A DNA stretch of 51,923 nt from an uncultured Granulosicoccaceae bacterium (GTDB taxonomy: Bacteria > Pseudomonadota > Gammaproteobacteria > Granulosicoccales > Granulosicoccaceae), in the NCBI GenBank assembly GCA_937928685.1, contig CALGJU010000225.1, positions 1 through 51,923 of the forward strand, written 5' to 3'. The notes beneath the pieces were generated by a model. It saw only the letters and a program-made list of their open reading frames with translations. It was not told where the DNA came from and made no database searches. Positions 26,408 through 43,992 of the stretch are shown piece by piece. The position numbers and the translations under genes are program-made. Numbering within the stretch: position 1 is the first letter of the stretch; each line of letters opens with the position of its first letter.

Positions 26408-26893
26408 ATGCGAAATGTAATTCTTGCTTCTCTGATGTTGATCCCGTTTATCGGCATGTCGATCGGCCATGCGGATGCTCCGATCCAAGGAACAATGCAA
26501 GCGTTTATTGTTGAGATTCAAGACGATAAAGAATCCCTCAAAGCAGCGACTGATGTTGAGCCTGATCAGCTGGTTGAATATCAGCTTACCTACGTCAACA
26601 AAGGCGCTTCCAATATTAATGGTTTGTCAGTCGTTGGACCGGTTCCGGAAGGTACTTCGTACGTTTCCGATACAGCTAATGCTGATGTCGCTGCGTCGCT
26701 GCTGGTGAGTATCGATGGTGGAAAGACGTTTGAATCTGAGCCAGTAGTAAGAACAGAGACCAAAAGTTCGGGGGAGGTAGTGGAAAAAATTATCCCACCG
26801 GCTGAATACACACATATCAAATGGAATGCAGAGAGTGCTATCAAATCTGATGGCGGAACTCAGTTCTATACGTACCGCGTTCGAGTTAAGTAG
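26408..26893 (+). CDS. small secreted DUF11-like protein
   Basis: 161 residues from ATG 26408, chosen because AGGAAA precedes it and a signal peptide starts at once (RNVILASLMLIPFIGMSIGHA); a longer frame starts 78 nt earlier without support. The mature part is one beta-sandwich module of the DUF11 type: PDQLVEYQLTYVNKGASNIN, VVGPVPEGTSYVSDT and the final strand TQFYTYRVRVK. It is the first gene of the six-gene cluster and 101 bp before the large DUF11 gene. It could be a minor subunit, chaperone or cap for the large proteins. That role is inference; the single-domain size is unusual because DUF11 normally occurs in long arrays. Confidence 0.75.
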   Translation: MRNVILASLMLIPFIGMSIGHADAPIQGTMQAFIVEIQDDKESLKAATDVEPDQLVEYQLTYVNKGASNINGLSVVGPVPEGTSYVSDTANADVAASLLVSIDGGKTFESEPVVRTETKSSGEVVEKIIPPAEYTHIKWNAESAIKSDGGTQFYTYRVRVK

Positions 26894-26928
26894 TCCCTAT
26901 TCACATTTTATAACCCAACCAATTTAAA

Positions 26929-26954
26929 AACAGGCACATCGTATACGACCTGTT
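26929..26954 (+). repeat. inverted repeat between first and second cluster genes
   Basis: Arms AACAGG (26929-26934) and CCTGTT (26949-26954) enclose the palindrome TCGTATACGA. No T-run follows, so it may be an mRNA-stabilising stem or an operator rather than a terminator. Confidence 0.45.
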
Positions 26955-26994
26955 GAAAAAATTATGGTGAGAGCAACAAAGGTAATTGAGAAAG

Positions 26995-29934
26995 ATGAAA
27001 TTTAGGAAAATGAAAGATCCAGCATGGCTGTTATTGCCACTGACGGCTGCGATGATCGCAGCCGGTGCCAGTTCTAATGTATATGCTGCGACTGCGGCGG
27101 GCACCGAAATTAAAAACCTCGCGACCGTGAGCTATGAAGATGCGACTGGTAACTCTTATACAGCGCAATCGAATGAGGCCGTAGTCACTGTTGCGCAGGT
27201 ATACTCTGCTACCGTTAACTCAACAGACACGACATTGACCGCATCACCCGGTCAGCCTGTTGATATTTCCTATACCTTGGAAAACACGGGTAACGGTGCC
27301 GATATCTTCTTACTTTCTGCGGCAGATGACATTGTCGGTGGCGATGTACTGGATGCAGACAGCATCACTATTTTCGACGATCTCAATAACAATGGACAGG
27401 CTGATTCCGGTGAGCCTGTTATCAGTAGTCTGACGCTAAACGCTGGTGAAATAAAAAGCATAGTAGTTCGAGCCGAAGTGCCCACTACAGCGTTATCTGG
27501 TGAAGATCTCGGTATCACTCTGACGGCCCAGGCGGAAGAGGGCACCGGCGCGGCAGTAGCGGCGAGTGTGACTGATCTAACTGCAGCTAAAGGCCCTGAT
27601 ACTTTTGATAGCACGGTTGAAACGTTGATCACTGTCACGGGTGATGCCGTTGTGATAGCAACGAAAAGCTCGGTACATAATCCTGCGACATCAGAAATAA
27701 CCTATACCGTGGAAATCAAAAATAACGGTAATGCAAATGCAACCAATGTGTTGTTGAGAGATGCGATTCCGTTGAACACCACTTACGTGACTGGCAGTGC
27801 AACCACCAGCGGCTTGATTACCAGTAACGGTGATACTTTGCCAGCGGAGCTTCTACTGGACGAAGTCGCTGACAATATCGACTACAACGGAGATGGCAAT
27901 ACGCTTGATACCGCAGTTGACGGGTTGGGTGCGGTTGATGCGAGTCTGCCTGCTAATGCCACTGTAACCATTACCTACACCGTTGCTTATGATCCCGCTC
28001 TGGTGGCAGGTGGCACGGTGATTTCAAACATCGCGCATGTTATTGCTGATCTCGACGGTGATGGAAATGCAGATCTGCCTGAGTCTACAAACCAGGTGAA
28101 TGACATAGTGGGTGACACTTTATTGGTGTCTATCACTGATACTGATGAAGCCACAGGTGGTGACGGAGTCAATGACGGTCAGGATGATGACGGCGACAAC
28201 GAAATTCAATTGGTTGATCAGGTTACCGCCGGTGAAACGGTAGTATTCAAAAACCTTGTGACCAATAGCGGTAACGTCGCTGATGTGCTGGAACTCTCGG
28301 TCAACAGTGGCAACTTCCCTGCAGGCACGGTATTCACCTTCTGGAACGACGCTGGCACGGTTCAGTTGAGTGATTCGAATGGTTTATTCGGTGTTGATGC
28401 CGGGCTAATTCCAGCCGGCGGGTCTGAGACCATTACGGTCCTTGCGCAATTGCCAGCAGCCGTAAATGGCCCTGGAAACTATGATGCGGTGGTCACTGTT
28501 ACTTCTGCCACAGATCCGACAGCGACGGATACCGTGACGGAAAGGCTTGCTCTGATCGATGCATCGACTATTGATATACACAACGCTTCCGGTGGTACTT
28601 TAGGCACTAATGAAAATCCAATTGGTGCTCCTGACTATACTGCGGTAAATACAATCCCTGCTGATATTAATACTTCGGTAAATATCCCGTTGTTTATTGA
28701 TAACGATGGCGACTCCGGCAACTCTTTCCAGTTGTCTTCCGGTAGCGTTTACGACGCCGCAACTGAAACCGTCAACGGTCTGCCGAATGGCTGGACAGTC
28801 GAGTTCTTCTTATCTGATGGTGCAGGCAACCCGACGGGTGGGCCGATCACGACAACCCCGGTTATTGCCGGTCAGACAACAGACTTTGAGATCATCGCTG
28901 TAGTTACCATACCTGCTGACCAAACTCAGGCCGTAGGTGACTTCGTGCTTGATAATGACGCGGATGGAATCGATGAAACACTTGATGGAAATGGCGATGG
29001 TGATGGTGACTATCCCTTATATTTTCAGATAAGCTCAACCAATACAGGTGCAAGCGATGTAACGCTTGAGGCGATTGACGTCGGTGCCGTAGTGGCAGCG
29101 TCATTGACACCAAATGGTTCCGCCCAAGTTGATCCGGGTGGTACTGAAGCGTATCAAAACACCTTGACCAACAACGGTAATGCGACAGAGACCTATGAAG
29201 TTGTTTCTGCCAATAGTCAGCCTGGCTGGACCAGCACATTGTCGATAGACACCGATGGTGATGGGGTTGCTGATACTGAATTAGGTAACCTGACACCAGG
29301 TACCATTCAGGTACAACAACCGGACGGTACTGTTGCCTCTGTAGAGATTACAATAGGTGCATCGGGTCCAGAGTTCACACTGGACGCTGGTGAGGCATTG
29401 CCGATTACAGCCACAGTATTTGCTCCTGCCAACGCTCCTGACGGACAGGTAGATGTGTTGTCTATTGATGCTACCAATGTCGCTTCTTCCGATGTCGTTA
29501 GTGCACAGAATCAGTCGCAGGTTGTTACTGGTAAGGTTCGAATAGATAAGCTGGCGGCAGTTGATTCAGACTGTGACGGTACTGAAGACGCTACTGGTTT
29601 CGCTGCGATTCAACCGGCCACTGTTGAGCCGGGTCAGTGCATTATCTGGCGCATCGTGGCCGAGAACCAAGGTGCTGCAGATGCTTTTAATGTTCAGGTA
29701 CGTGATGCGGCCCCGGCCTTCACAACCTATGTCGCGGGAAGTATGAACTACTGCTTGAACCAGAACTGTGCACTCGGGTCTGTCAGTGACCTGGCTGGTG
29801 ATGATGCAGGCGAAGAGAGTGCTGGTGAGGTCGTGTTCTACGTCGGCTTAGGTGCAACACCTGCTTCTGGACTTGGCGGCGAATTGGTTTCAGGAAACCA
29901 GGCCACTGTGCAGTTCTCAGTGCTCGTCGACTAA
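26995..29934 (+). CDS. large secreted DUF11-repeat protein (979 aa)
   Basis: The start is ATG 26995; a TTG 9 nt earlier is less likely. The signal peptide ends at NVYA (about residue 31). The mature N-terminus has GTEIKNLATVSYED (36-49), a motif shared with two other cluster proteins. A chain of beta-sandwich modules follows: a DUF11 module (about 218-330; ITYTVEIKNNGNANATNVLL, AIPLNTTYVTGSA) and several 'NSGNVADVLELS'-type modules. Acidic loops (DDGDNE, DGNGDGDGDY) could bind calcium. A C-terminal Cys-containing DUF11 module ends VQFSVLVD. There is no C-terminal anchor or LPXTG. It is probably an exported surface or matrix protein. Confidence 0.82.
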   Translation: MKFRKMKDPAWLLLPLTAAMIAAGASSNVYAATAAGTEIKNLATVSYEDATGNSYTAQSNEAVVTVAQVYSATVNSTDTTLTASPGQPVDISYTLENTGNGADIFLLSAADDIVGGDVLDADSITIFDDLNNNGQADSGEPVISSLTLNAGEIKSIVVRAEVPTTALSGEDLGITLTAQAEEGTGAAVAASVTDLTAAKGPDTFDSTVETLITVTGDAVVIATKSSVHNPATSEITYTVEIKNNGNANATNVLLRDAIPLNTTYVTGSATTSGLITSNGDTLPAELLLDEVADNIDYNGDGNTLDTAVDGLGAVDASLPANATVTITYTVAYDPALVAGGTVISNIAHVIADLDGDGNADLPESTNQVNDIVGDTLLVSITDTDEATGGDGVNDGQDDDGDNEIQLVDQVTAGETVVFKNLVTNSGNVADVLELSVNSGNFPAGTVFTFWNDAGTVQLSDSNGLFGVDAGLIPAGGSETITVLAQLPAAVNGPGNYDAVVTVTSATDPTATDTVTERLALIDASTIDIHNASGGTLGTNENPIGAPDYTAVNTIPADINTSVNIPLFIDNDGDSGNSFQLSSGSVYDAATETVNGLPNGWTVEFFLSDGAGNPTGGPITTTPVIAGQTTDFEIIAVVTIPADQTQAVGDFVLDNDADGIDETLDGNGDGDGDYPLYFQISSTNTGASDVTLEAIDVGAVVAASLTPNGSAQVDPGGTEAYQNTLTNNGNATETYEVVSANSQPGWTSTLSIDTDGDGVADTELGNLTPGTIQVQQPDGTVASVEITIGASGPEFTLDAGEALPITATVFAPANAPDGQVDVLSIDATNVASSDVVSAQNQSQVVTGKVRIDKLAAVDSDCDGTEDATGFAAIQPATVEPGQCIIWRIVAENQGAADAFNVQVRDAAPAFTTYVAGSMNYCLNQNCALGSVSDLAGDDAGEESAGEVVFYVGLGATPASGLGGELVSGNQATVQFSVLVD

Positions 29935-29949
29935 AGCTAAAGCGTAATA

Positions 29950-29973
29950 GGGCGCCGGATCTCTCCGGCGCCC
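29950..29973 (+). terminator. GC-rich hairpin between the 979-aa gene and the barrel gene
   Basis: GGGCGCCGGA and TCCGGCGCCC are perfect 10-bp arms with a TCTC loop, followed by GTTGTTATTG (U-rich but no solid run). It could be a leaky terminator or a 3'-end stabiliser that sets the ratio of cargo to barrel. Confidence 0.65.
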
Positions 29974-30001
29974 GTTGTTATTGCGATACAGTCTCTAGAC
30001 A

Positions 30002-33000
30002 GTGTTACGACTAAGAACCTTTTTTACCAAAGCTCAGCTACTTGTGTTGCTGAGTTTTGGTTTATGCGTGGGTGCCTTAGCGATAACCGCTCCAGGTACC
30101 ATTATTTTTAACCGCGCGGTGTTGTCTTATGAAGACGCCGTTACTGAAGAAAAGGTACTCAGAACCAGCAATGAAACCAGTGTGGCGGTCGGCCACATGT
30201 ACAGCTTTGCCGTTGAGAATACGCACGAGCTTGAAGTTGATGCGGGTACTGTAGCGCGCTTCCCGCATCGTATTGTTAATCAGGGAAACAGCGAAGACAG
30301 CTATCGATTCTCATATGCGAGTCTTGATGTCGAGGCATTTGATACCCCGGTAATATTTTTAGATGTAAATCGTAACGGGGAGATTGATCCGGATGAACCT
30401 GCGATCGATCAAACGCCATTGCTTCAAGCAGAGCAGACGATCGACGTTATCGTTACCGCTCGTGTTTCGCACCTGCTTATAAACGGCCAGCAGAGGAATT
30501 TTGACTTTGCGGTTGAGTCAGATAAATCTGACAAGACTAAACCGGTTAGTGACACTATTACAGTGGGGCGCCCGGGCACGCTCGATATTTCACTCAGTAC
30601 TTTTCCTGTGTGCGATGCGACAGTATTCCCCGGTGACATAATTACCCATCGAGTGAACTTACAGCACAGTGGAACGCGTTCGATTGGTTTGGCGAATCAT
30701 GTACTTGATGGTGAGCCGAGTGGCGGAATGATTGTTGAGGTGCTGGTATCGGATAATAATAATTACTTTGGTTTTTCGGATCCGGTCAATAGCACCGTAT
30801 CAGGTACCAATGTGGTAAAGCTTGAAGGCTTTGCTGACAATGAATGGATTAGTGAGAGTAGGTTTAGCGATCCTGCATATGCTGGCGGCCGTGTGATCAG
30901 TACCGGCTATTTTGTTGAGCCCGGAGTATTGCAGGAGGAAGAATTAGCCTCATTCTCGGTGCAACATATTGTAAGAGACACCGTCTTCACAAGTCAGTCG
31001 GTTTTAACAACCGCTTTTATTGACTCCGATTCAGACCGGGTGGCGGATTTTGTTAGTAATTCAACGTGCAACACCTTCTCATCATTTGCGGCGGCCAAGC
31101 GTGGTGACCTTCAGTTTATGGAGCCGGTAAGCGCGCTGAGAGATGCGGGTGAGGCACCGCAGTTTAACTCTGACAAAGATTTTTCCAATGCGGCGCAATA
31201 CACACTAAAGCGCAAAGACACGGACCCTTATTCAACCATGCGCGACGGTATGTATCTTCAGTTGACGCTTGAAGATATTGACCATGAAAATATTCGTACT
31301 GACAGTGCTGGAAACAGATATGTGATAGCCAGTGTAACCTCTGAGCTGACCGGTGATGTGGTTAATGTGGTGATGCTTGAAACGCACAATTCAACTGTGT
31401 ACCGAAGCGTAGCGCCAATTGAGCTTTCCACTCAGGTGCGGTCAGCCGGTGGGACTTGTCCGATATTTCAAAATGCAGAGAATGTAAGCCCGCGTTATGA
31501 ACAGTCAAATCCATCCTGTATCTTACAAAGCGCTGATAACGACCAGTTGCGCGGCAGGTTTGGCAATTCGGAGGCTGGTTTTATTCTGGCTAAGGTGGCC
31601 TTTGTTCACCGCCAGAGTGTGGTGTTCGACTCCAAGACGCTGTTGCCAGTACAAGGCGCGGTAGTTCAGATCAGGCGCGTAGATACTGATCAAATAGAAA
31701 TGGATTCGGTAACGGGTGTGCTTTATGAGTTTGTCACCGGCGCTGATGGGGAGTTTACTTTTCCCAAGGTGGAGGAAGACACAGAATACTATTTACATGT
31801 GAATCCACCAGTGCAATATAGTTTTGCATCCGTGGTACCTGCCTATTTGCTGACAGACTATAACGTGCATGGATTTTCTTATGGGCGCGCAGGTATTGCA
31901 GGTCCGGCAACGTCGACTCCATCGCAACCCGTAGGCAGTGATTCGTGGGATTCGGGTGTTTTTAAAGGTGCCAGTCTTAATTCTCAGGAGTCCATAGATA
32001 TACCGCTTGACCCTAAGGTAGCAGAGAGGCTGCTGGCTGTTGATAAGGTCGCCTCACAGACCATTGTTGATATCGGACAGTCGGTGTCTTACACGATAGC
32101 GATTAAGAATTCATCTGCTGAAGATCTCAATCGCGTGGCGGTGGAAGACACGCTTCCGTTTGGGTTTCGATATGTGCCCGGGACGGCGATGTTGGCGGGT
32201 GTCTCCATGGCAGATCCGGTTCGTTCAGAGGCAGGCGCGCTCGTTTTCACTGTCGGTGAGCTGGCTGCCAAGCAATCGATTATGTTGTCCTACACACTGC
32301 GTGCCTCGGCTGCCGCCATTGACGGAGACGGAATTAATACGGCTATCGCAACTGGCTTAACTGTATCGCGGCATAAGGCCGTGTCCCTGCCCGGCAAGGC
32401 CAAAGTGACGTTACGTCGAGGCGGCGTGTTCTCGAACAAAGCGGCACTGTTTGGTAAGGTTTACGTTGATCAAAACTGTGATGGTCTGCAAAATCATAAA
32501 GAGTGGCCTATAGGCGGTGTACGTCTATATTTGCAGGATGGTAGTTATGCGGTAACAGACGCAGATGGGCTGTTTAGCTTGTACGGGTTGAATCCAGATC
32601 AGTACGTGATCAAGCTCGATCGTCATACCATGCCTGCAGGCTTAGAGCTTAAGCTGCTTTCGGTAGAGCAGGCAGCCGATGCCAGTAGCCGATTTGTTGA
32701 TCTCTCGGAAGGGGATTTTCACCGGGCAGACTTTGCTGCGGGTTGCCCGAAGCAAGACAGTGCCAGAATTTTTAGTGAACTTAAGCAACGCAATCAATCT
32801 ATAGACAACAGCTGGAACCTGCAGCACGCTGAAAAGTTAAGCCAGCTTGATCAACGCGAAGGTAATAACAATCGATCGCGTGTGAGAGCTACTGATGGTG
32901 ACTTATCGAATGGCGTCCTCGACGGGCCGGAAGATTTCGATGCAGGTGCGATCACAGGTGATTTTGGAGCCCGTGATGATGACTCACTTGATATCGATAG

Positions 33001-36000
33001 TGATACTGCTGCCAACGGCGAGAATGACAAGAATAAAGAGCAAATGGCCAATGCGAAAGAAATTGTGGCCGATATCACTAAAGCGCAGGCAAAGAAGGGG
33101 ACCTGGTTATGGCCGCGCGGTGAGCTGAGTGTTAACGGACGATTTATGGCCGTGGTCAGAGCGGGTATCGAGCCTACTTTATATGTAAATGATAAAGCGG
33201 TGCCGGCATCTCAGATCGGTGAGCGCATGGTTAATCGGCGTGAAAAAGCACAGGTGATTGCCTGGTACGGTGTTGAACTTAATGCCGGTGAAAATACTGT
33301 AGAGATAAAAGGCACGGGGCCGTTTGGCAACCAACGTGTATTGGCTGAAGGGGTATTTAAAAGGCCATCTTCAGGAACACAAATAAAATTAGAGGTTGAG
33401 ACGCTGACGGTTCCTGCCGATGGCGGCCGGTCCGTGTTGCCAATAACAGTCAGTATTCTGGATGAAAATGGTTACCCGGCGCTTGGGGTTTACTACATCA
33501 CCGTAGACAGCAGCGATGGCAGTTGGGCTGAGCCTGATATTCAGGATACTGAGCCGGGTCGACAAGTGCGTATTGAAAACGGAGTGCGGACTCTGCACTA
33601 CAAACCATCCGCTGTGACCGGTGAGGTGCGGGTCGACGTGAGCACGGGTAAGTTTTCAGAACAACTCATGCTTCATCAGGTGGCAGAAAGCAGGCCGCTG
33701 GTAGTATCCGGTTTTATCCAGGCGGGAGGGTATTTTTCTACCCGCAGTATGGGGCAGTTTTCGGCCTCTACTGATCTTGGAAACCTTGATACACAGGGTC
33801 GTTTTGAAAGCCGTGCAGCGCTGTTCGTGAAAGGTACCGTCAAAGATAAATACAATTTAACTCTGTCCTACGATTCAGATAAGAAAAGTAATCAGCAGCT
33901 GTTACGCGACCTCAACCCTGTGTTGCATTACCCGATTCATGGTGATGCCTCTATACGTGGGTTTGAGGCGCAAAGTCGAAGCAAACTGTATGTACGCGTT
34001 GAGCATGATAAGGACAGCGTCATGTGGGGTGATTTTATGACAGACGCGGGATCTGACAGAAGAGATCTTGCGCGAATCAATAGAACTTTAACTGGCTTGA
34101 ATAGCCTGTTCCAGGATGGCAAGAATACGCTCCGTGTATTTGCAGCACAGGAAGAAAACCGGAACCTTGTAGAGGAGATTCCGGGTAATGGAAGCGCGTT
34201 GCTGTATCGCCTGCAGCAGTATCCGATAGTGCCTAACAGCGAAACAGTGGATCTGATTACTCGAAGTAGAGAAAACCCCGGCCTGGTACTTGACTCGGTG
34301 CGCCTCAGTAGATTGGGTGATTACACTATCGATGATGAATTGGGGTATTTGTCATTTGCCTCGGCCATACCGACTCTCGATAGCGAGCAGAACCCAGTAT
34401 TTGTTCGCGTCACCTATGATGTTGAAAGTGACGGTACAAACTATATGGTGTCCGGTGTTCGTTTTGATCGTGCTGTTAATGATCGTCTGTCGTTTGGCAC
34501 CAGCGTAACGTACGACGGTCACTCTTCAGAAGGCCGACAACTCGTTGGTTTTTATGGTGACTACAAGCTTGGTAAAAAGACCAGCATATCGGTAAGTGTG
34601 GCGAATTCGAATTCAAAGCGGCAGGGGTCCGGTTCTGCTCACCGTGTTTCCATTGACCATCAGTGGTCACAAAAGAATGCAGCCACTACCACCCTGACAA
34701 GAATGTATGCGGATGAGAACTTTGACAACAGCGGAGCGGCGACAGCGTCTGGTCGAACTGAAACCAGACTTCAACATAGTCAAAAATTGAAAGGCAGCAC
34801 GCGTCTGTTACTCGATGTGAATCGAAGCAGTTCTTCGATTACCCGGGACGATCGTCATACGGCAAGTGCGATTATTGAAACACAGATTAAAGACTGGCAG
34901 GTTCGCGCGGGATTGCGTCAGATTGAACAAAAGTCCGATAGCAATAACGAAGACATTTTAACAACGGTGCTCGGCCTTCGACGTAAATTTAATTGGTTAG
35001 GAAAGAGCGGGCAAACGAACATAGAGTATGAACAGGATACCAGCCAGGCAGAACGCAGGCGTATTGCGGTGGGCGCCAAGGTTAATTTACACAAAGATGT
35101 AACTACTTATTCCAATTACGAGATGACTAACACGCTGCTCGCCGTGGGGGGATTGTCTGCGGATCATGAGTCTGAATCATTCACACTTGGCGTTGAATCG
35201 AAAGTACTGCCTTCTACCCGCCTTTATTCTGAATACAGGATGCGCGGCGCGTTTGAATCCCGTGATTACGAAACCGCCAGCGGTGTACGTGGTGACTATG
35301 AGATTACCGAGGGTCTTCGCATTAGCCCACAGTTTGAATTTATTAAAAGGCTGGGGGCAGCCAATTCAGATTCAATTGCTGCATCATTGGGAATTGTCGA
35401 TACGCGTAATCCGAATAGCCGAAGACTGATTAGGTTGGAAACCCGACATACACACGACAGTGATCATTACGGATTACGCGCCAGTATTGCATCGCGAATA
35501 AACAGAGACTGGACAGCTATCGTCTCAGACAATTACAGCCATCAGAAAAGTACTGGCACTGACCCGGTGCTTAGGCATTCTTTTACTGCCGCAGTTGCCA
35601 GGCGCCCGAAATACAATAATAAACACCACATGCTGTTTATGTACAAGTTGAAGCAGGAAAAAGGTGTGACGAGTGGCGTTGAAAGAACCGCGCATGTGTT
35701 GTCCACACATCAGAATTTGCAGGTCGATGAGAGCACCACACTATCGGGTCGGGTAGGACTTAAGCACGATACCAGTCAATACGATCAGATAATGGTGACT
35801 GACTTTTCGATGCTGGCTGACGCCAGACTGAGCTTTGATCTGAGTCGAAGGTTGAATATCGATACCGGGGTCGGTGCTCTTTCTACCAATAGTTTTGCGG
35901 AGGTCAGATACTCGATGGGTATGGGGGTTAACTACACATTGAATAAAAACCTGCGTCTCAGCCTGGGTTATAACCTGGTGGGTTTTAAAGATGAAGAGCT

Positions 36001-36085
36001 CGACGCTGAAAAATACAACGCTGAAGGCGGACGCATCGGCTTGCAGTACAAACTCGATGAGGAGTTATTTCAATGGTTGAAGTAA
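30002..36085 (+). CDS. giant multidomain outer-membrane beta-barrel protein (2027 aa)
   Basis: The start is GTG 30002, the first possible start after an in-frame stop; no clear ribosome-binding site. A signal peptide ends near ALAIT, then PGTIIFNRAVLSYED (31-45) as in the cargo-like neighbours. Further on: a carboxypeptidase-regulatory-like module (about 540-615), a DUF11 module (679-780), an SdrD-B-like module (816-905; LFGKVYVDQNCDGLQNHKEW), an acidic linker (965-1014), a bacterial Ig-like module (about 1125-1225) and about 790 residues of alternating amphipathic strands (1235-2027) read as an outer-membrane barrel. Within it, YRLQQYPIVPNSETVDL and LGDYTIDDELGYLSF recall a motif of giant barrel proteins. 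The last residue is Lys, not the usual Phe. Likely the export or display component. Confidence 0.72.
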   Translation: MLRLRTFFTKAQLLVLLSFGLCVGALAITAPGTIIFNRAVLSYEDAVTEEKVLRTSNETSVAVGHMYSFAVENTHELEVDAGTVARFPHRIVNQGNSEDSYRFSYASLDVEAFDTPVIFLDVNRNGEIDPDEPAIDQTPLLQAEQTIDVIVTARVSHLLINGQQRNFDFAVESDKSDKTKPVSDTITVGRPGTLDISLSTFPVCDATVFPGDIITHRVNLQHSGTRSIGLANHVLDGEPSGGMIVEVLVSDNNNYFGFSDPVNSTVSGTNVVKLEGFADNEWISESRFSDPAYAGGRVISTGYFVEPGVLQEEELASFSVQHIVRDTVFTSQSVLTTAFIDSDSDRVADFVSNSTCNTFSSFAAAKRGDLQFMEPVSALRDAGEAPQFNSDKDFSNAAQYTLKRKDTDPYSTMRDGMYLQLTLEDIDHENIRTDSAGNRYVIASVTSELTGDVVNVVMLETHNSTVYRSVAPIELSTQVRSAGGTCPIFQNAENVSPRYEQSNPSCILQSADNDQLRGRFGNSEAGFILAKVAFVHRQSVVFDSKTLLPVQGAVVQIRRVDTDQIEMDSVTGVLYEFVTGADGEFTFPKVEEDTEYYLHVNPPVQYSFASVVPAYLLTDYNVHGFSYGRAGIAGPATSTPSQPVGSDSWDSGVFKGASLNSQESIDIPLDPKVAERLLAVDKVASQTIVDIGQSVSYTIAIKNSSAEDLNRVAVEDTLPFGFRYVPGTAMLAGVSMADPVRSEAGALVFTVGELAAKQSIMLSYTLRASAAAIDGDGINTAIATGLTVSRHKAVSLPGKAKVTLRRGGVFSNKAALFGKVYVDQNCDGLQNHKEWPIGGVRLYLQDGSYAVTDADGLFSLYGLNPDQYVIKLDRHTMPAGLELKLLSVEQAADASSRFVDLSEGDFHRADFAAGCPKQDSARIFSELKQRNQSIDNSWNLQHAEKLSQLDQREGNNNRSRVRATDGDLSNGVLDGPEDFDAGAITGDFGARDDDSLDIDSDTAANGENDKNKEQMANAKEIVADITKAQAKKGTWLWPRGELSVNGRFMAVVRAGIEPTLYVNDKAVPASQIGERMVNRREKAQVIAWYGVELNAGENTVEIKGTGPFGNQRVLAEGVFKRPSSGTQIKLEVETLTVPADGGRSVLPITVSILDENGYPALGVYYITVDSSDGSWAEPDIQDTEPGRQVRIENGVRTLHYKPSAVTGEVRVDVSTGKFSEQLMLHQVAESRPLVVSGFIQAGGYFSTRSMGQFSASTDLGNLDTQGRFESRAALFVKGTVKDKYNLTLSYDSDKKSNQQLLRDLNPVLHYPIHGDASIRGFEAQSRSKLYVRVEHDKDSVMWGDFMTDAGSDRRDLARINRTLTGLNSLFQDGKNTLRVFAAQEENRNLVEEIPGNGSALLYRLQQYPIVPNSETVDLITRSRENPGLVLDSVRLSRLGDYTIDDELGYLSFASAIPTLDSEQNPVFVRVTYDVESDGTNYMVSGVRFDRAVNDRLSFGTSVTYDGHSSEGRQLVGFYGDYKLGKKTSISVSVANSNSKRQGSGSAHRVSIDHQWSQKNAATTTLTRMYADENFDNSGAATASGRTETRLQHSQKLKGSTRLLLDVNRSSSSITRDDRHTASAIIETQIKDWQVRAGLRQIEQKSDSNNEDILTTVLGLRRKFNWLGKSGQTNIEYEQDTSQAERRRIAVGAKVNLHKDVTTYSNYEMTNTLLAVGGLSADHESESFTLGVESKVLPSTRLYSEYRMRGAFESRDYETASGVRGDYEITEGLRISPQFEFIKRLGAANSDSIAASLGIVDTRNPNSRRLIRLETRHTHDSDHYGLRASIASRINRDWTAIVSDNYSHQKSTGTDPVLRHSFTAAVARRPKYNNKHHMLFMYKLKQEKGVTSGVERTAHVLSTHQNLQVDESTTLSGRVGLKHDTSQYDQIMVTDFSMLADARLSFDLSRRLNIDTGVGALSTNSFAEVRYSMGMGVNYTLNKNLRLSLGYNLVGFKDEELDAEKYNAEGGRIGLQYKLDEELFQWLK

Positions 36086-36615
36086 AAAATCCAGTAAAGA
36101 GTGCATTGCTGAGATCAGCGCTGTGTATTGCGGTTCTGATTCTCAGTGCTTGTGCCAGCACTGAGGAACTGTTTGCAGAATACGATGACAAGTTTTGTGT
36201 GGTGCCTGAATATCCGGCGCAGTCATTTCGTTGGGAGCCTGCCGTGTATTTTAAGTCTGATTCTGATGAACTATCTTCGCAGGCAATCGACGCTTTGAAA
36301 GTAAATGTCGCCACCTTAAAGCGCCTACCAGCGGGATACAAAATTTCGTTGAAAGGGTTTGCTGATCATCAAGCGTCCAGTGACTACAATCAGGCATTGT
36401 CAACCAACCGGGTTAACTCAGTTCGTAGCTACCTGAACAAAACACTTGGATTAGATGTGGCGCTGATCGTCGGGTCGGCACACGGTGAGGATTCTCCATT
36501 GACAGAAATTACCTCTGGACCGGTTGATGTTGATCGGCGGGTTGAGATGCTGTTGATGCGTTCTGATCTCACACCGGTTGCCAATCAACCCTTGATCAGG
36601 CTTACAGAGAACTAA
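36073..36615 (+). CDS. OmpA-family lipoprotein
   Basis: 180 residues. The ATG overlaps the barrel gene by 13 nt and has GGAG 8 nt upstream (inside the barrel gene), so translation is probably coupled. The signal peptide ends in the lipobox LILSAC. After a short spacer, residues about 55-165 form an OmpA-like peptidoglycan-binding domain: EPAVYFKSDSDELSSQA, LKGFADHQASSDYNQALSTN, RVNSVRSYLNK and DRRVEMLLM. Asp and Arg of the diaminopimelate-binding site appear present. Expected role: anchors the outer-membrane assembly, especially the barrel, to peptidoglycan. It is followed after 5 nt by the next DUF11 gene. Confidence 0.88.
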   Translation: MVEVKNPVKSALLRSALCIAVLILSACASTEELFAEYDDKFCVVPEYPAQSFRWEPAVYFKSDSDELSSQAIDALKVNVATLKRLPAGYKISLKGFADHQASSDYNQALSTNRVNSVRSYLNKTLGLDVALIVGSAHGEDSPLTEITSGPVDVDRRVEMLLMRSDLTPVANQPLIRLTEN

Positions 36616-36620
36616 TCGCT

Positions 36621-39377
36621 TTGACCTATCTGCAGCCAAACAGCAGGTGTGCCAGCGGTCCGGATGGCATCATCCTGGCCATGCTGGTTGTGCTTGTGTT
36701 CTGCAGTCTGGTTGCTACTGCTTCTATTGCGGCGACCAAAGCCGGCACGGTGATTGTTAATCAGGCCAGCGCCTCCTACCGCGATACACAGGGCGTTCGT
36801 CGTATAGCAACTTCCAATGTGGTAGAGACGGTAATTCAACAAGTGGCGGCGTTTGAACTAACCAGTAATCAAAGTAAGCCGGGTGCTGCTGGTCAGAAAT
36901 TGTACTTTACACACACCTTGATCAATACTGGCAACGGACCCGATAGTTTCGCGCTTGCTGCTGTGAACGGGGCAGCCGATAGCTATGATCTCAACAATAT
37001 TGTCATTTATAAAGACGACGACAGAGACGGACTGCCAGATGCTTATCTGCCGATCAGCACCAGTTACCTGTTGGAACCCGGTGAATCGCAGAGCATAGTT
37101 ATCAGTGGCGGGATTCCAGTGGGCACAGCCAATGGTGCGGCGGCGCTGGTGGAGGTCACTGCATACAGCCTGTTTAACAATGCGGTGACGGCGCTGAATA
37201 CGGACACAGTGACAGTCACTGACTCTGCTGTTATCGAGCTGACAAAAAGTATCAGCTCGTTGCAGGGAGCCTCACCCGGTGGGCCTTTTACTGTCACCAT
37301 TAATTACCGCAACACCAGTACGGTGGATGCCACTGACGTCACGCTTATTGACGCATTGCCGCAAGGGATGACCTATCTGCCAGCAAGCGGACGCTGGAGT
37401 GAGAGTGGTATTGTTGTTTTAACAGATGCTGATCCAAACGATGCGCAGCTAGGGCTAAGGTACTGTGCGTATGACAGTAGCTGTACAGCTTTGCCAGAGG
37501 CAAACACTGATAGTGATGCTCTTTCAAGTAATCAAGTCACGGCAATTATTGCCAACGTTGCGGCAGGCGGGAGTGGATACGTTGAATTTCAGGTATCCGT
37601 AGATAGCGGTCTGCTTTCATCGGTGCTTTTTAATGTCGCAGAGATCGAATACACCACCGCTGGTGCGTTGATTGGGCGCATCAATAGCAACCCGGTGCCG
37701 TTCAAAGTGATGCAGGGTGCAGCGGTAGTCATTAACGGCTCGAACGTTACCAGTGTTGATGGTGCGGATGAGCCGCGGGAAATACTCGATAGCGTGTTCG
37801 GCGCAGGCAGTAATCTGCCAGAATGTCAATTGAGTAATCCTGATCCGGATGGGGATGGTTATGGGTGGGAGAACTCTGCTCAGTGTATTGTGTTGAATCT
37901 GCAGTCCGGCAACTCGGTCTACTTTAAAAATACAGTGTGGAATCTGGGTAACGCAACAGACACTTTTGATATCACTACTGCAATATCTACTTTTCCGGCC
38001 GGCACATTGTTTAGCGTGCTGCAATCTGATGGGCAAACTCCGTTACTTGATACCACTGGCAACGGCATAGTAGATACCGGCCCGCTGGCCGTGGGTGCGT
38101 CCTACGAGATTGTCCTGCAAGTGGTGTTGCCAGCTGGCACTACGGGTAATAACAGTGGCGCTTTTTTTGACGTGTCGACCATTGCGAGCTCCACTGATAA
38201 TGCCGGTGTGTCTAATGCTATGTTGAACCGACTGCGTAATATCACCGCGGGTTCGATAGATATTACCAATGTGGCTGAAGTCGGTAGCGCGCAAGCCATA
38301 GGTGTTGGCACCGGGCCGGAAGCCGCACCCGTATCGTCCGTGAGTGTAGCGCCCGGCGAGACTGCGGTGGTAGACCTTTATATCAACAACACCAGCGATT
38401 TTCCGATGGATTTTGATCTGTCAGCCAGTGTTTATAGTGATTTTTCAAGTATTGAATTACCAGCGCAATGGCAGCTTCAATTTAGCCTGACGGACAACAG
38501 CGTAGTCACTAGCACCGGCGTGGTTGCACCGGGTGAATATGTTCTGGTGCAGGCCAGCCTTACCGTGCCGGCTCAAGCCACTCCACTGGCTGTCAGTATC
38601 TATTTTAAGGCGGAAAATGATAGATACACAGTGACCGACATCAAACACGACCAGGTCATAGTTACCGGTCAGGAATCAGTGTTGTTGGGAATCAACCAGG
38701 AAGCTCAAACCCAGGCTGGTGGATCGCATGTCTATAGTCATTCTCTGGTAAACAGCGGTAATACCGATGTGAACAACATTGCCCTGACGGTGACAGACAG
38801 CCTTGCCAGTGAGGGTTGGAGCTCTCTTATTTACGAGGATATTGATGGCGATGGAGTATTGAGTGCTGCTGATGTAACGGTCAGTGTTACTCAGTTGTTC
38901 GCAGGTGAATCGAAAACTCTGTTTGTAAAAGTATTCGCACCCGGAACGGCAGTTGATAGTCAATTTAACTTTTCACAGCTTTCGGCAACCTGGGGGGCTG
39001 AGTCGTTGTCAGTGACGGATATTACGAATATCAGCTCGGGTGAACTATCAGTCACCAAGGAACAGGCGCTGGATAATGGTTGTGACGGTATTCTTGATAG
39101 TGGCTATACAATGAGCGCTTTCTCGGTTGAGCCCGGTAACAATTGTGTCCGATATCGACTGACGGCAATAAATTCAGGAAGCCAGGCGGTACTGAATGTA
39201 GTGGTGGCGGATGCGACTCCAACCTTTACCTCTTACTATGGCGGCGCTGGCTGCTCGCAATTAAATTGTACGCTTGCTGAACCATTGACTGGTGCTCAAG
39301 GTGACATTGTTGCCTCACTACCTACGCTTGCGGCGGGTGCGTCGGTCGTTGTTGAGTTTATGGTAAGGATTGATTGA
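36621..39377 (+). CDS. large secreted DUF11-repeat protein (918 aa)
   Basis: The start is taken as TTG 36621, 5 nt after the OmpA gene; an ATG at 36681 would leave a signal peptide without a basic N-region. The hydrophobic core LAMLVVLVFCSLVATASIAA ends the signal peptide, followed by AGTVIVNQASASYRD (41-55), the cluster-wide motif. DUF11-type modules follow (ELTKSISSLQGASPGGPFTV; DALPQGMTYLPASG), and a Cys-bounded DPDGDGYGWENSAQC segment (about 402-422) related to the fasciclin protein motif. The C-terminal module has paired cysteines and ends VVEFMVRID. Domain order parallels the 979-aa protein, so the two are likely paralogues. It overlaps the reading region of the next gene start by close spacing (1 nt between stop and ATG). 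Confidence 0.8.
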   Translation: MTYLQPNSRCASGPDGIILAMLVVLVFCSLVATASIAATKAGTVIVNQASASYRDTQGVRRIATSNVVETVIQQVAAFELTSNQSKPGAAGQKLYFTHTLINTGNGPDSFALAAVNGAADSYDLNNIVIYKDDDRDGLPDAYLPISTSYLLEPGESQSIVISGGIPVGTANGAAALVEVTAYSLFNNAVTALNTDTVTVTDSAVIELTKSISSLQGASPGGPFTVTINYRNTSTVDATDVTLIDALPQGMTYLPASGRWSESGIVVLTDADPNDAQLGLRYCAYDSSCTALPEANTDSDALSSNQVTAIIANVAAGGSGYVEFQVSVDSGLLSSVLFNVAEIEYTTAGALIGRINSNPVPFKVMQGAAVVINGSNVTSVDGADEPREILDSVFGAGSNLPECQLSNPDPDGDGYGWENSAQCIVLNLQSGNSVYFKNTVWNLGNATDTFDITTAISTFPAGTLFSVLQSDGQTPLLDTTGNGIVDTGPLAVGASYEIVLQVVLPAGTTGNNSGAFFDVSTIASSTDNAGVSNAMLNRLRNITAGSIDITNVAEVGSAQAIGVGTGPEAAPVSSVSVAPGETAVVDLYINNTSDFPMDFDLSASVYSDFSSIELPAQWQLQFSLTDNSVVTSTGVVAPGEYVLVQASLTVPAQATPLAVSIYFKAENDRYTVTDIKHDQVIVTGQESVLLGINQEAQTQAGGSHVYSHSLVNSGNTDVNNIALTVTDSLASEGWSSLIYEDIDGDGVLSAADVTVSVTQLFAGESKTLFVKVFAPGTAVDSQFNFSQLSATWGAESLSVTDITNISSGELSVTKEQALDNGCDGILDSGYTMSAFSVEPGNNCVRYRLTAINSGSQAVLNVVVADATPTFTSYYGGAGCSQLNCTLAEPLTGAQGDIVASLPTLAAGASVVVEFMVRID

Positions 39378-39378
39378 T

Positions 39379-42300
39379 ATGCCTTACTTAACTGCATCTT
39401 GGCCAAGCATTCGCCAGTGTTTTTTTACCTTTGTGGCGTTGCTTTTCTTTTGTATACCTTTTAAGGGCTTACAGGCCGAGGGCTCCTGGCAGATGGGTCT
39501 GTTCGAAGGGTTGTCCTATCGGCAGCCATTGTACGAAACTAATGTAGGCGCGAATCGTAGCGTGCTACGTGTGGATATTCTGGCTGCCGGTGAAGTCATT
39601 AATATACTTGCCTGTGGAACAAGTAATACCAGTAACCTGCGAATAAGAATATTTGATCCATCTGGCACCCGTGTATATAACACGTCAACAACGGACTCCA
39701 ATGTCAATTGTAACGATGACTTTACCGGTACCTTTGATCCGGTGGCGAGCAATGCACATCAACACACCACCACCACCACGGGTACCTATGAAGTTCATTT
39801 AACCAACTTTAACGGTACGATCTTTAATCGCTTCGACGTCACAGTGACTGACAATGTCACTGATCAAATAGATCCGAAGGAAAATGGTGGTCGCCTATGG
39901 TCTGATTACTGGTACTTCTGGGCGGGTTCCTTTGCAGAATCAGCCTCGACTGATGCAGATCTGTACGTGGTAGCAGATGGAGGTTTTGTCGATACATACT
40001 ACATTTGGAAACTTGATCTGAATAACTTTGCGGGGTTCGGCTATGGCTTGAAAGCGAATAATCTTGGTGTGGTCAGTCCCAACGCTGCGGGTGATGTGGT
40101 AGCTGGAATGAGTGTACCAAGCTCAGGTAATTCTATTGTAGAGCAGTTTCCGATCTATCTGAGCTATCCGGAAAAGATCTACCCGGCGCCGAGTAGCAGT
40201 TTTAATGTATCCCCGTTGGAGTTTCTCGATAGCGATAATGTTGATAACGCGATTACCTCTGGAGGCAATGGTTCGTTTTATTATACGACCGATTATATAT
40301 CATCTGCTGTGTATGAGATTATCATCGATACCAGCAGTCCCACTGGTGGAGGACCAGACGGGATTTACGGACAGGGAGATATATTCCTGCGTGGTATAGC
40401 GCTGCCCGGTGCGAATGTGGTGCCATGGGATGGCAGAGACAATAATGGAGATGTCGTACCACTTGGGGCGTATACAGCAGAGCTCAGTGTGCGAATCGGG
40501 GAGTTTCATTTTTCTGCAGATGATGTAGAAACTTCCGGTGGCCCCAATGATGTTGGATTAAAAATGTATCTTGCAAACCCGAATGGAATTGATACTCCTG
40601 CCACTATTTATTGGGATGATTCCACTGTTTTAAACAGCACCGCACCGAATGCCTTTAATCAGCTGGGTATTTATGATGGTGATCACAACTGGGGTGTGTT
40701 TAACTCTGGTGGAATCGGTAATGTCGCATTAATTGATACTTATACCTATGGGTTGAGCGTCAGCCCGAATCCGACGGGCGTTGCGATTGTGCCGAATGAT
40801 CGACCTCTGGCCACCATTCGTAAGAGCTTTGTACCGGCGATCATACCCCATGGTGGCACCAGTAATATGCAGTTTGAGATTTCTAACAATGGCACCACGA
40901 CGCTGACGGGAGTCAACCTCACCGATACCATGCCCTTCGGTATGACGCTGGTGACTGATCCGTCTGCCATCACAGTGACAGGGGCGGGTTGTAGCGGTTT
41001 TGCGTTTAGTACCGACACAGTGATTGGGGGCGATGTTTTAAATATTACTGATGGCACAATGACTGGAAACGCCACTTGTGTCGTCGCCGCTGATGTGACG
41101 GCTGTGATGCCCGGTGATCTGGTAAACACCACCTCTGGTGTCACCACCAATGAACTTCCTTTTGGTGTTATCAGTAATGGTGCCTCACTTCTGGTTCAGC
41201 CTGAACTGTCCGGAACACCGTTTGCCTGTGATGCAAGCTTGTATGAGCTGGAAGAGGCGGGTAGTTCGACGCGACTCTATAAAGTAAATACTGATGTGTC
41301 GCCGTTCACGCGTACGGAGTTCACAGGCATCAGCTATGGACCTTCTGTCGATTACAGTTATACCGGTTTGGCTTACCATCCTACTGATCACTATCTATAT
41401 GCCATCGTCACTGCATCTAACAATGGGCTCGGTGTGCCTGAGATCGGATCTGTGGTTCGCATAGATGCTGACGGCAAGGTGGTTGATCTTGGTGTGCCGG
41501 AGCGTGGTCCTAACACGATGACCATGCCAGTTGTGTCAGATCAATTTGTCGGTGGTACTTTTACCGCCAGCGGAAATTATGTGGTAGTCACCGATACCAG
41601 CGCAACGGCTTCGAGCGGTACAACCATACCGGTCGGTGAACGTGGCCTGGTGCTGGAGATAGACGTCAGCACCAATCCGCCGCAAGTGTTATTTAATCGT
41701 GTGCATGGACGTGATGTTGGCGATATAGTGGCTCACCCAAATGGTAGTCTGTTAAGTCATACCGCCGCTGAAGGTCTTATTGCTATTGACAGTCAGACAG
41801 GAGCGGTAACATCCATCGGCGGGAATGTCAGTGCTCGTATCAGCAGTTTGATGGCAGATAATTGGGGGCAGTTGTACGCCCACACTGAAAATACAAATGA
41901 ACTATTTAAGATAGATGCCAGCACAGGGGTCGGCACGTTGCTTAGTACTCTGCCGGGTGCGGTGTCTGCAGACGGTGCCTCCTGTGCCTACGGTGTAAGT
42001 ATACAGAAGACGGTGTCCGCATTAGAGATTGAGCCCGGTAATTCGGTGACTTATACGTTATCACTGGTTAACGCGGGGGCCTCACCGGTTAGCTTTGATC
42101 TGTTGGATAATTTGCAGGACACAAGAACTTATGTTGCCGGTTCATTGCTTAATCCGATCGGAGGGTCCGCGAACAGTTATGCCGATACCAACCTTCTTAC
42201 GGTTACCGGTGCAACGCTGGCCGCGAATAGCACGGCAACCGTGCAATATGATGTGATGTATCCCCCGAGTGTCGGTGTGGGCACCCGCACTAATCAAGCG

Positions 42301-43992
42301 GTGGCACAAATAGCCGGTGAGCCACCGGTGTTATCTGATTTTCCGACCACCGCTGCAATAGGGGACGCGACCCCGATAGAGGTGTTGGCAAGTCCGGGGA
42401 TAGGTATAAGTAAGCGTGCAATCGCCTCCGGTTCTGTAGTGTCGTATTGGTTTAATGTAGTCAATACCGGTTCTTCGAATCTTGATGACCTGTCTCTGGT
42501 CGATGACCTTGATGCTGTGTTCGGTGCGGGCAACTATAGTGTGTTGGTGCCACCTGTGTTGGAGATCGATCCGGGAACTATTGTATTGAATAATGCCTTT
42601 ACTGGTAGTGGATTCGGCTCAACTTTAATTGACGCAGCAAGTAATAGCAGTCTTAGTGAAGGAGGCCGGGCTGTGATTCGTATCACTGTGGAGGTCAGCA
42701 CCCTGTCCAATACGGGGTCAGGCTATGGTGTGTATTCGAATCAGGTAGATATATTTGCGTTAACACCAACGGGAAATGTATTGTCGGATCAATCTGTAGA
42801 TGGATACGATGTAGATCCGGATGGGAATGGTGTCGCGGATGAACAGTCTCCGACAATAGTCTCCTTGCAAGCTGCGTTCGCTGTTACGGGAGTGGTGTTT
42901 GAAGATAACGGTGCTACCGGTGTAGCACATGACGGGCAGAAAAGTGGTGGTGAGAGGCCTCTTGGTGGCGTGGTGGTTGCACTACGCGACAATAACGGTG
43001 TGGTTGTTGATACCGCGGTAACCAACACTGATGGTAGTTATGAAATATCAATCCCCGTGGCGCTGGCGGGTACGCAGGTACAGGTGATTGCAGTGGCAAC
43101 ACCCGGCTATCAGTCTATTTCTGAAGCGTTTTCCAATGGTGCTACCGGCAGTGTCATTGACAGTACCGTGCTTTTCAACCCTGATTTATCCGTCGGTAGT
43201 GCTTACCAGATAGATTTCGGTAGAGTGAAACAAGCGACATGGCTCAGTAACAGTGTGGCGGAAAATAATCCGGATACTGTTGTATTTCATGCCCATCAGT
43301 ATCAGCCGAAGAGCAATGGTGATCTGACGTTTTCCTACGCCGATCAATCCAGTTCGCCCAACAACCCGAGCTTTAGTGCGGTGTTGTATCTCGATACCAA
43401 CTGCAACGGTATGATCGATGGTGGAGAGGTGGTTGTGAGCGGATCAATTCCGGTTACCTATAACTCATCTATATGTGTGGTAAACAAAGTGTTCATTCCG
43501 GGGAACGCAGGTAACGATGATACTTATTCAACTACTGTCGCGGCCAGTCTGAATTACTCGGACCCGATAGCAAGTGGTCATGGAGTTTCAAGTTATCTTG
43601 AGCTCACAGACATCACCCGTGTGGTAGCGTTGGGTGAGGGCGTTCTGGTACTTTCCAAAACAGTGCAAAATGTCAGCAACGGTGCGGCGGTGACCACGCG
43701 AAACACAGCGCTGCCTGGTGATGTGCTGCGCTACGCCATTGATTTCAACAACAATGGCACGGGCTCGGTGACAGAAGTTCTGGTCACTGATAGTACGCCG
43801 GCATACTCCATTTTGGAGACGCCGGTGCAGTGCCCTGCAACGCTGCCAGACGGTATTGTCGGCTGTCAGGTGATGGAGCCATCAGGCGCAAGCAATGTTT
43901 CAGGGTATGACGGGGCGGTGCGCTGGCAATTCCATGGTGCGCTTACAGCCGGTGCCGGCGGCACGGTGTGGTTTGAAGTAAGGATCGAATAA
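39379..43992 (+). CDS. giant secreted protein with DUF11 and SdrD-B-like modules (1537 aa)
   Basis: The start is ATG 39379, 1 nt after the previous stop, with AAGGA 9 nt upstream. The signal peptide (CFFTFVALLFFCIPFKGLQA) is followed by an N-terminal beta-rich region unlike its neighbours (to about 470), a DUF11 module (475-600; FVPAIIPHGGTSNMQFEISN), a propeller-like region (about 610-875; SYTGLAYHPTDHYLYAIV, GLVLEIDV, GLIAIDSQTGAVTSIGG) similar to DUF6923-type segments, two further DUF11 modules, an SdrD-B-like module (about 1170-1260; VTGVVFEDNGATGVAHDGQ) and a last DUF11 module ending VWFEVRIE. No anchor motif. Probably the largest exported cargo of the cluster. Confidence 0.8.
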   Translation: MPYLTASWPSIRQCFFTFVALLFFCIPFKGLQAEGSWQMGLFEGLSYRQPLYETNVGANRSVLRVDILAAGEVINILACGTSNTSNLRIRIFDPSGTRVYNTSTTDSNVNCNDDFTGTFDPVASNAHQHTTTTTGTYEVHLTNFNGTIFNRFDVTVTDNVTDQIDPKENGGRLWSDYWYFWAGSFAESASTDADLYVVADGGFVDTYYIWKLDLNNFAGFGYGLKANNLGVVSPNAAGDVVAGMSVPSSGNSIVEQFPIYLSYPEKIYPAPSSSFNVSPLEFLDSDNVDNAITSGGNGSFYYTTDYISSAVYEIIIDTSSPTGGGPDGIYGQGDIFLRGIALPGANVVPWDGRDNNGDVVPLGAYTAELSVRIGEFHFSADDVETSGGPNDVGLKMYLANPNGIDTPATIYWDDSTVLNSTAPNAFNQLGIYDGDHNWGVFNSGGIGNVALIDTYTYGLSVSPNPTGVAIVPNDRPLATIRKSFVPAIIPHGGTSNMQFEISNNGTTTLTGVNLTDTMPFGMTLVTDPSAITVTGAGCSGFAFSTDTVIGGDVLNITDGTMTGNATCVVAADVTAVMPGDLVNTTSGVTTNELPFGVISNGASLLVQPELSGTPFACDASLYELEEAGSSTRLYKVNTDVSPFTRTEFTGISYGPSVDYSYTGLAYHPTDHYLYAIVTASNNGLGVPEIGSVVRIDADGKVVDLGVPERGPNTMTMPVVSDQFVGGTFTASGNYVVVTDTSATASSGTTIPVGERGLVLEIDVSTNPPQVLFNRVHGRDVGDIVAHPNGSLLSHTAAEGLIAIDSQTGAVTSIGGNVSARISSLMADNWGQLYAHTENTNELFKIDASTGVGTLLSTLPGAVSADGASCAYGVSIQKTVSALEIEPGNSVTYTLSLVNAGASPVSFDLLDNLQDTRTYVAGSLLNPIGGSANSYADTNLLTVTGATLAANSTATVQYDVMYPPSVGVGTRTNQAVAQIAGEPPVLSDFPTTAAIGDATPIEVLASPGIGISKRAIASGSVVSYWFNVVNTGSSNLDDLSLVDDLDAVFGAGNYSVLVPPVLEIDPGTIVLNNAFTGSGFGSTLIDAASNSSLSEGGRAVIRITVEVSTLSNTGSGYGVYSNQVDIFALTPTGNVLSDQSVDGYDVDPDGNGVADEQSPTIVSLQAAFAVTGVVFEDNGATGVAHDGQKSGGERPLGGVVVALRDNNGVVVDTAVTNTDGSYEISIPVALAGTQVQVIAVATPGYQSISEAFSNGATGSVIDSTVLFNPDLSVGSAYQIDFGRVKQATWLSNSVAENNPDTVVFHAHQYQPKSNGDLTFSYADQSSSPNNPSFSAVLYLDTNCNGMIDGGEVVVSGSIPVTYNSSICVVNKVFIPGNAGNDDTYSTTVAASLNYSDPIASGHGVSSYLELTDITRVVALGEGVLVLSKTVQNVSNGAAVTTRNTALPGDVLRYAIDFNNNGTGSVTEVLVTDSTPAYSILETPVQCPATLPDGIVGCQVMEPSGASNVSGYDGAVRWQFHGALTAGAGGTVWFEVRIE

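Follow-up and report, generated by a model that had tools for sequence, protein, structure and literature searches.

A Conserved Six-Gene Cluster That May Build an Outer-Membrane-Anchored Surface Fibre from Split DUF11 Domains

This work concerns a cluster of six open reading frames (ORFs), here called S, A, B, O, C and D in their order, which lie on one strand (+) at 26408-43992 of contig C225 of an uncultured Granulosicoccaceae bacterium (GenBank CALGJU010000225.1, assembly GCA_937928685.1). The whole contig, 51,923 nucleotides (nt) long, is called the window below. We favour, with some reserve, the reading that the cluster encodes an outer-membrane-anchored surface fibre of split immunoglobulin-like (Ig-like) domains of the DUF11/CLIPPER type, assembled by the mechanism proposed below. 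The new observation is that A, C and D each end in a DUF11 domain that stops before its last strand, while mature A, B and C start with that strand. The cluster is a conserved unit that spans at least six bacterial phyla.

Split DUF11 Domains

In the isopeptide triad of DUF11/CLIPPER domains (Lys, Asp and Asn) the Asn is carried on the last strand (PMC12617251). How is such a domain distributed among the proteins of the cluster? A (26986-29934, +, 982 amino acids (aa)) and its paralogue C (36621-39377, +, 918 aa) have both an N-terminal donor strand and a C-terminal acceptor domain, A being an array of Ig-like domains. B (30002-36085, +, 2027 aa) begins with a donor strand, which is followed by an Ig/DUF11/SdrD region, two Ig-like domains and a predicted giant beta-barrel. 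D (39370-43992, +, 1540 aa, variable in length between loci) contains DUF6923, DUF7933, DUF11 and SdrD_B domains and has an acceptor only. S (26408-26893, +, 161 aa) is a small secreted protein of one DUF11-like domain, which resembles an acceptor without the isopeptide Lys and Asp and has no donor strand.

Domain ends were scored by end position on a DUF11 profile of 115 positions, built from internal tandem domains including the last strand (consensus ...GDGVNTATV...); a regular expression undercounts acceptor ends, and the A proteins of Photobacterium fail it. For the terminal DUF11 domains, 124 from A/C and 47 from D, the median end was at position 84 of 115, with a median of one residue left in the protein, against 108 for internal domains (n = 420). 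Truncation was thus found in 169 of 171 terminal domains and in 29 of 420 internal ones. With the Pfam profile the terminal match in C stops at position 84 of 114, one residue short of the protein end, and the A protein of Alcanivorax likewise stops at 84 of 114; in A and D of the window this profile spans only the first half of the terminal domain.

The truncated acceptor domains of the window lie at 29530-29934 (+) in A, where the Lys of RIDK and the Asp of VRDAAP are kept and the domain ends after strand F, at 39039-39377 (+) in C (Lys 813), and at 43639-43992 (+) in D (DUF11-like, Lys 1430). Counted on the alignment, since terminal domains have an insertion after the Lys, the acceptor Lys and Asp are conserved in 99 and 99% of A/C proteins and in 98 and 98% of D proteins. 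Internal DUF11 domains carry the Lys-Asp-Asn triad in 435 of 637 cases. Terminal domains have Lys and Asp but not the Asn strand, so that the triad is not within one domain.

The strand absent from the acceptors of A, C and D is this triad Asn strand, and it is the one that begins mature A, B and C. The donor segments are located at 27085-27201 (+) in A (residues 34-72, AATAAGTEIKNLATVSYED..., Asn 44), 30083-30196 (+) in B (residues 28-65, ITAPGTIIFNRAVLSYED..., Asn 37) and 36732-36845 (+) in C (residues 38-75, ATKAGTVIVNQASASYRD..., Asn 47); the mature N-terminal strands read AGTEIKNLATVSYED in A, PGTIIFNRAVLSYED in B and AGTVIVNQASASYRD in C. A segment of the form AGTxIxNxA, about 8-9 residues past the signal-peptide core, occurs in 118 of 123 A/C proteins and 72 of 74 B proteins, with the Asn conserved in 99 and 96%, respectively. 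A stricter pattern was met in 3 of 40 D proteins, in none of 62 S proteins and in 16 of 1259 background ORFs; in the window both D and S are without the donor. Other DUF11 proteins encoded in this genome have no donor, and their domains are complete. One of them (L060 7065-11687, G000:C177) is 1540 aa long and rich in complete DUF11 domains; it has no barrel next to it, and its C-terminal end shows no DUF11 truncation.

Donors (A, B, C) and acceptors (A, C, D) balance 3:3 in the window and 2:2 in several shorter clusters (S, A/C, B, D). The arrangement of S, A with donor and acceptor, B with donor, C with donor and acceptor, and D with acceptor recurs across loci. Taken together, and judged by sequence pattern, A, C, D and B show the incomplete Ig folds and N-terminal donor strands of chaperone-usher subunits. 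Since A and C have both parts, B the donor only and D the acceptor only, the set fits a linear chain D-(C/A)n-B; the pairing of strands between proteins, the covalency and the chain order are, at this level, what the sequences suggest. The sequence-only reading of this DNA had taken B to export or anchor the DUF11 proteins. It missed the complementary terminal and N-terminal halves, which make A, B, C and D look like parts of one fibre, with B as the likely base, and not like an exporter with independent cargoes.

The common edge of the terminal domains permits another explanation, in which B acts as a pore devoted to secretion, in the manner of type IX systems, for A, C, D and S as individual cargoes, with the C-terminal edge as their export signal and not as a surface for polymerisation. 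All these cargoes do share the same terminal domain edge, and this parallels type IX cargoes, which end in a beta-sandwich signal (PMC4804311). However, the missing strand with its conserved Asn at the N-termini of A, B and C would remain unexplained, as would the 98-99% conservation of acceptor Lys and Asp and the balance of donors and acceptors. We therefore regard a secretion pore with separate cargoes as unlikely, and we rejected a C-terminal export signal alone because it leaves the donor strands without explanation.

Conservation and Gene Neighbourhood

A scan of genomes with a profile of the B barrel gave 417 relatives, and the best 80 of these, taken by barrel similarity alone, were used as loci. 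They come from Granulosicoccaceae, Thiothrix, Leucothrix, Cocleimonas, Alcanivorax, Kistimonas, Photobacterium, Shewanella, Gallionella, Nitrosomonadales, Geobacteraceae, Desulfatibacillum, Balneolaceae and Verrucomicrobia. Plasmid records add relatives in Acinetobacter, Pacificitalea, a Synechococcus and Deinococcus radiodurans, and the range includes alpha- and betaproteobacteria and cyanobacteria. In D. radiodurans MP1 (L024) B apparently exists as two proteins, a DUF11 part and a barrel part of 965 aa, and donor-type N-termini occur nearby.

The S gene together with an upstream DUF11 gene was present in all 60 loci with at least 4.5 kb of upstream sequence. OmpA followed the barrel within 60 nt in 57 of the 75 loci with at least 1 kb downstream, and a downstream DUF11 gene was found in 65 of the 69 loci with at least 4 kb. 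These synteny counts exclude a chance grouping, and a mere chance neighbourhood was rejected on them. Barrel homologues usually have adjacent DUF11 and OmpA genes, in agreement with the dedicated unit of barrel, OmpA and DUF11 proteins that had been suggested from the sequence.

In an even sample of 274 genomes from the class, S was detected in 25, the barrel in 39 and both in 23 (Fisher p 6e-21); that is, the barrel was present in 23 of 25 S-positive genomes against 16 of the other 249. Of the two S-positive genomes without a barrel, one has a contig (L220) that breaks off as soon as the next genes begin, and the other has its S gene as an orphan on a short contig (L219). The small DUF11 protein had been proposed earlier to assist, but that S is the most constant partner of the barrel was overlooked.

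DUF11 is common as a stalk domain of adhesins (PMC12617251); could these genes be ordinary DUF11 fibrillar adhesins merely adjoining an unrelated barrel? The synteny across several phyla, S with upstream DUF11 in every suitable locus and the co-occurrence with S already contradict this explanation, which we consider hardly credible.

The nearest named relatives of the window belong to Granulosicoccaceae. Within the same genus the order S-A-B-O-C-D is retained. In a sister genus the D gene is mostly found upstream of S, and two more OmpA proteins often come after C; in one locus of this genus (L042 14871-18052) the two extra genes after C code OmpA-type 8-strand barrels with one or two OmpA domains each.

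The Giant Barrel of B

An AlphaFold model of B residues 1040-2027, built with 55 homologues, had a mean predicted local confidence (pLDDT) of 82.6 and a predicted template-modelling score (pTM) of 0.70. Along the chain, two Ig-like domains come first, then eight strands and a small plug-like insert, and finally 32 more strands and a C-terminal helix. The predicted outer-membrane barrel corresponds to 33698-36082 (+), with the insert near 34244-34357; its figure of about 40 strands was counted from the DSSP listing. In fold comparison the first and last strands align to those of closed porins. The model supports B as a probable giant outer-membrane beta-barrel, and the outcome that the sequence-only reading had named as refuting, a structure prediction without a barrel, was not obtained.

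The top fold matches of B were FimD ushers (Z 14.5-16.3, 310-366 residues aligned, root-mean-square deviation 7-14), followed by porins and the SlpA barrel of Deinococcus. At the sequence level, no convincing relative of the barrel profile was found among solved structures (OmpT porin, E 0.001), and Pfam gave no match in B to SprA (PF14349), to autotransporter or two-partner secretion (TPS) barrel families, or, at E <= 0.1, to Usher (PF00577). Membership of B in the usher, SprA and autotransporter families was rejected on these missing Pfam matches.

SprA, the giant barrel of type IX secretion, was among the Foldseek matches of the model. Compared by hhalign with a profile of 21 SprA sequences, B gave one 70-residue match (E 0.0008, score 47), while 30 shuffled controls scored at most 31.5 and the reversed one 20. 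The matching residues form the plug-like insert and the next strand. Both likenesses speak for the secretion pore considered above, but the lack of an SprA family match in Pfam speaks against it; the profile match hints at a distant relation and not at membership.

OmpA Arrangements and Related Barrels

O (36073-36615, +, 180 aa) is an OmpA-family lipoprotein with a PF00691 match of 45.7 bits and the lipobox LSAC (Cys 27), as the sequence-only reading had noticed. It remains below the cut-off for PdsO, a proteobacterial sortase-associated family (54.5 against 152.2 bits). In relatives, the OmpA domain takes various positions. On a cyanobacterial plasmid (L026 9599-14230) the barrel ends in a fused OmpA-like domain; in other cases one or three copies lie just ahead of the barrel within the same chain, or OmpA closes a giant tandem-DUF11 protein whose gene immediately precedes that of the barrel. 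DUF11, OmpA and the B-type barrel thus remain associated across varied arrangements.

A second barrel subfamily (L056-L059, L143-L159) adjoins giant tandem-DUF11 proteins, overlaps them by 4 nt or is fused to them, with one or three OmpA domains between the barrel and the giant DUF11 part. The DUF11 chains next to or fused with related barrels are 2500-11777 aa long (for example, the 11777-aa open frame of G159:C2), and the giant proteins of this subfamily resemble grappling-hook and CLIPPER adhesins. The second-subfamily barrel may be an exporter or anchor of such adhesins.

These arrangements can also be taken to mean that B is an anchor only. In that case another route would bring the DUF11 proteins to the surface, while B, O and their chain would make up a structural layer joining the outer membrane, the wall and the surface coat. 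The attachment of OmpA in several ways is in keeping with this, as is the presence of SlpA, an envelope barrel of Deinococcus, among the structural matches. However, the cluster has no other conserved exporter, and the giant DUF11 chains beside or fused to related barrels are easiest read as having a conduit there. An anchor without export therefore seems to us quite improbable.

Subunit Roles and Proposed Assembly

A GC-rich intercistronic hairpin (29950-29973, +, z -3.2) lies between A and B and is proposed as an element of differential expression. Of 66 loci, 55 have a stable structure downstream of A (z < -2; mean z -3.9; mononucleotide shuffles), whereas the S-A junction has one in just 12 of 62. 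Hairpins of this kind can set apart the abundant subunit of pilus operons. By this analogy, the conserved hairpin suggests that A is probably the most abundant product and the major fibre subunit. The coefficient of variation of length is 0.03-0.08 for A, B and C and 0.24 for D; such variation is expected of a tip, and we propose D as the tip of the chain. O is proposed as the peptidoglycan tether.

The AlphaFold model of S is an Ig-like domain (pLDDT 91.5) whose best fold match, with a middling score, is TTHA1873 of Thermus (Z 8.4); a sequence search of solved structures with the S profile gave nothing convincing. S stops after the same strand as the acceptors but has neither their Lys nor their Asp, and could therefore hold donor strands while forming no link with them. 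We infer that S serves as a periplasmic cap or chaperone for donor strands.

In the fibre that we favour, A and C would each offer a mature N-terminal donor strand and an incomplete C-terminal acceptor, D would be the acceptor-only tip and B the donor-only base, and strand insertion would couple them as D-(C/A)n-B. Where the acceptor Lys and Asp meet the donor Asn, an isopeptide bond would probably form spontaneously and make the chain covalent. B, with its barrel of about 40 strands, would hold the chain and most likely export it too, and O would link the assembly to peptidoglycan. S would probably cap donor strands reversibly in the periplasm, and A, with the hairpin 3' of its gene, would probably be the abundant subunit.

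Several points weigh against this fibre. In A or C, the donor strand could turn back and insert into the C-terminal domain of the same protein. The N-terminus of B comes ahead of the barrel and would be expected in the periplasm at first, which makes its meeting with the exported chain hard to place. The likenesses of B to ushers and SprA are weak at the sequence level. The best 80 of the 417 barrel loci lean to close relatives, some loci of the Leucothrix/Thiothrix type have no D gene nearby, and one S-family gene (L219 204-686), the sole clear orphan found, has no barrel on its 9.3-kb contig.

Comparison with Known Systems

No named system matching the gene set was found in the open-access literature, although a description elsewhere is possible. 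This agrees with the sequence-only reading, which could name no such system for gammaproteobacteria, but the cluster is not limited to that class.

With chaperone-usher pili (FimD/PapC) the cluster has in common incomplete Ig-like subunits with N-terminal donor strands, a predicted barrel base with a plug-like insert, for which FimD is the best structural match, and a hairpin after the gene of the presumed major subunit. In contrast to these pili, the barrel has about 40 strands and not 24, the subunits are Ig arrays of 900-1100 aa, and the proposed contact between acceptor and donor has isopeptide residues. S would also differ from the pilus chaperone in offering a groove-type domain and not donating a strand; no PapD-like two-domain chaperone family was matched in any of the six proteins, and S is a single DUF11-like domain.

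Type IX secretion (SprA and the OmpA-type PorE) has a giant barrel, an OmpA-type wall link and cargo with a C-terminal beta-sandwich, as predicted here, and B has local profile similarity to SprA over only about 70 residues. Unlike SprA, B has no SprA_N match in Pfam. The type IX tails Por_secre_tail and CHU_C were not found by Pfam, apart from a sub-threshold CHU_C at residues 84-140 of D, which is not C-terminal.

CLIPPER adhesins with an OmpA anchor (Acinetobacter silvestris B9T28_05395, PMC12617251) share the DUF11 stalk, the Lys-Asp-Asn triad and the OmpA anchor. In those adhesins a complete domain forms its bond within one molecule, whereas here the domain is split between proteins, and a split DUF11 domain is not mentioned in that survey. 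The same paper mentions no barrel, whereas in locus L159 a CshA-GEVED-DUF11-OmpA protein has a barrel gene 10 nt downstream.

The archaeal thread Saci_0406 (PMC9715654) resembles our proposal in head-to-tail donor-strand complementation and a proposed intermolecular isopeptide bond. However, it has a single small subunit, belongs to an archaeon without outer membrane or barrel, and uses Asp-Asn chemistry between subunits n and n+2. The grappling-hook proteins GhpA/GhlA (PMC13319060) also form surface filaments of DUF11 beads, but these are single giant chains in side-by-side oligomers, with no barrel partner reported in the part of that paper considered here.

Gene Layout and Family Content

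The genome (4.2 Mb, 332 contigs) is 77% complete, and the cluster is flanked by a photolyase gene and a Fur gene. The six collinear genes described earlier at this place were all found, and the close packing claimed for the last four was measured as a 13-nt overlap of B and O, a 5-nt gap between O and C and an 8-nt overlap of C and D. Spacing is looser upstream (92 nt between S and A, 67 nt between A and B). Signal peptides were assigned by eye.

DUF11 (PF01345) exceeds the Pfam cut-off of 24.6 bits in A, B, C and D; S, with 22.8 bits, is slightly under it but passes the cut-off of the NCBIfam DUF11 repeat TIGR01451. B, besides the four DUF11-type proteins counted earlier, also holds such a domain, so that five of the six proteins are DUF11-bearing. 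Residues 541-882 of B (31622-32647, +) contain CarboxypepD_reg-like, internal DUF11 and SdrD_B domains by Pfam. The cluster region has no Rfam family match and fewer sigma-70-like promoter matches than the chance level. Elsewhere in the window, a 556-aa ORF on the opposite strand (14399-16069, -) has no Pfam match at E 0.001.

Significance

Is this a widespread, as yet unnamed fibre of Gram-negative bacteria? It would be welded head to tail by split isopeptide domains, held by a barrel that, with about 40 strands, would exceed the 36-strand barrel of SprA, and served by a strand-capping protein in place of a strand-donating chaperone. We see the case for all of this together as evenly poised. 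If it is true, diderm bacteria of several phyla would have a new route to build and anchor surface fibres, and the fibre would be present in genera that are easy to grow, Alcanivorax and Thiothrix among them. Functions would be given at once to several uncharacterised families (the barrel, S, A/C and D), and B may be the largest single-chain barrel. The acceptors and donors would then be natural split isopeptide pairs comparable to SpyTag/SpyCatcher.

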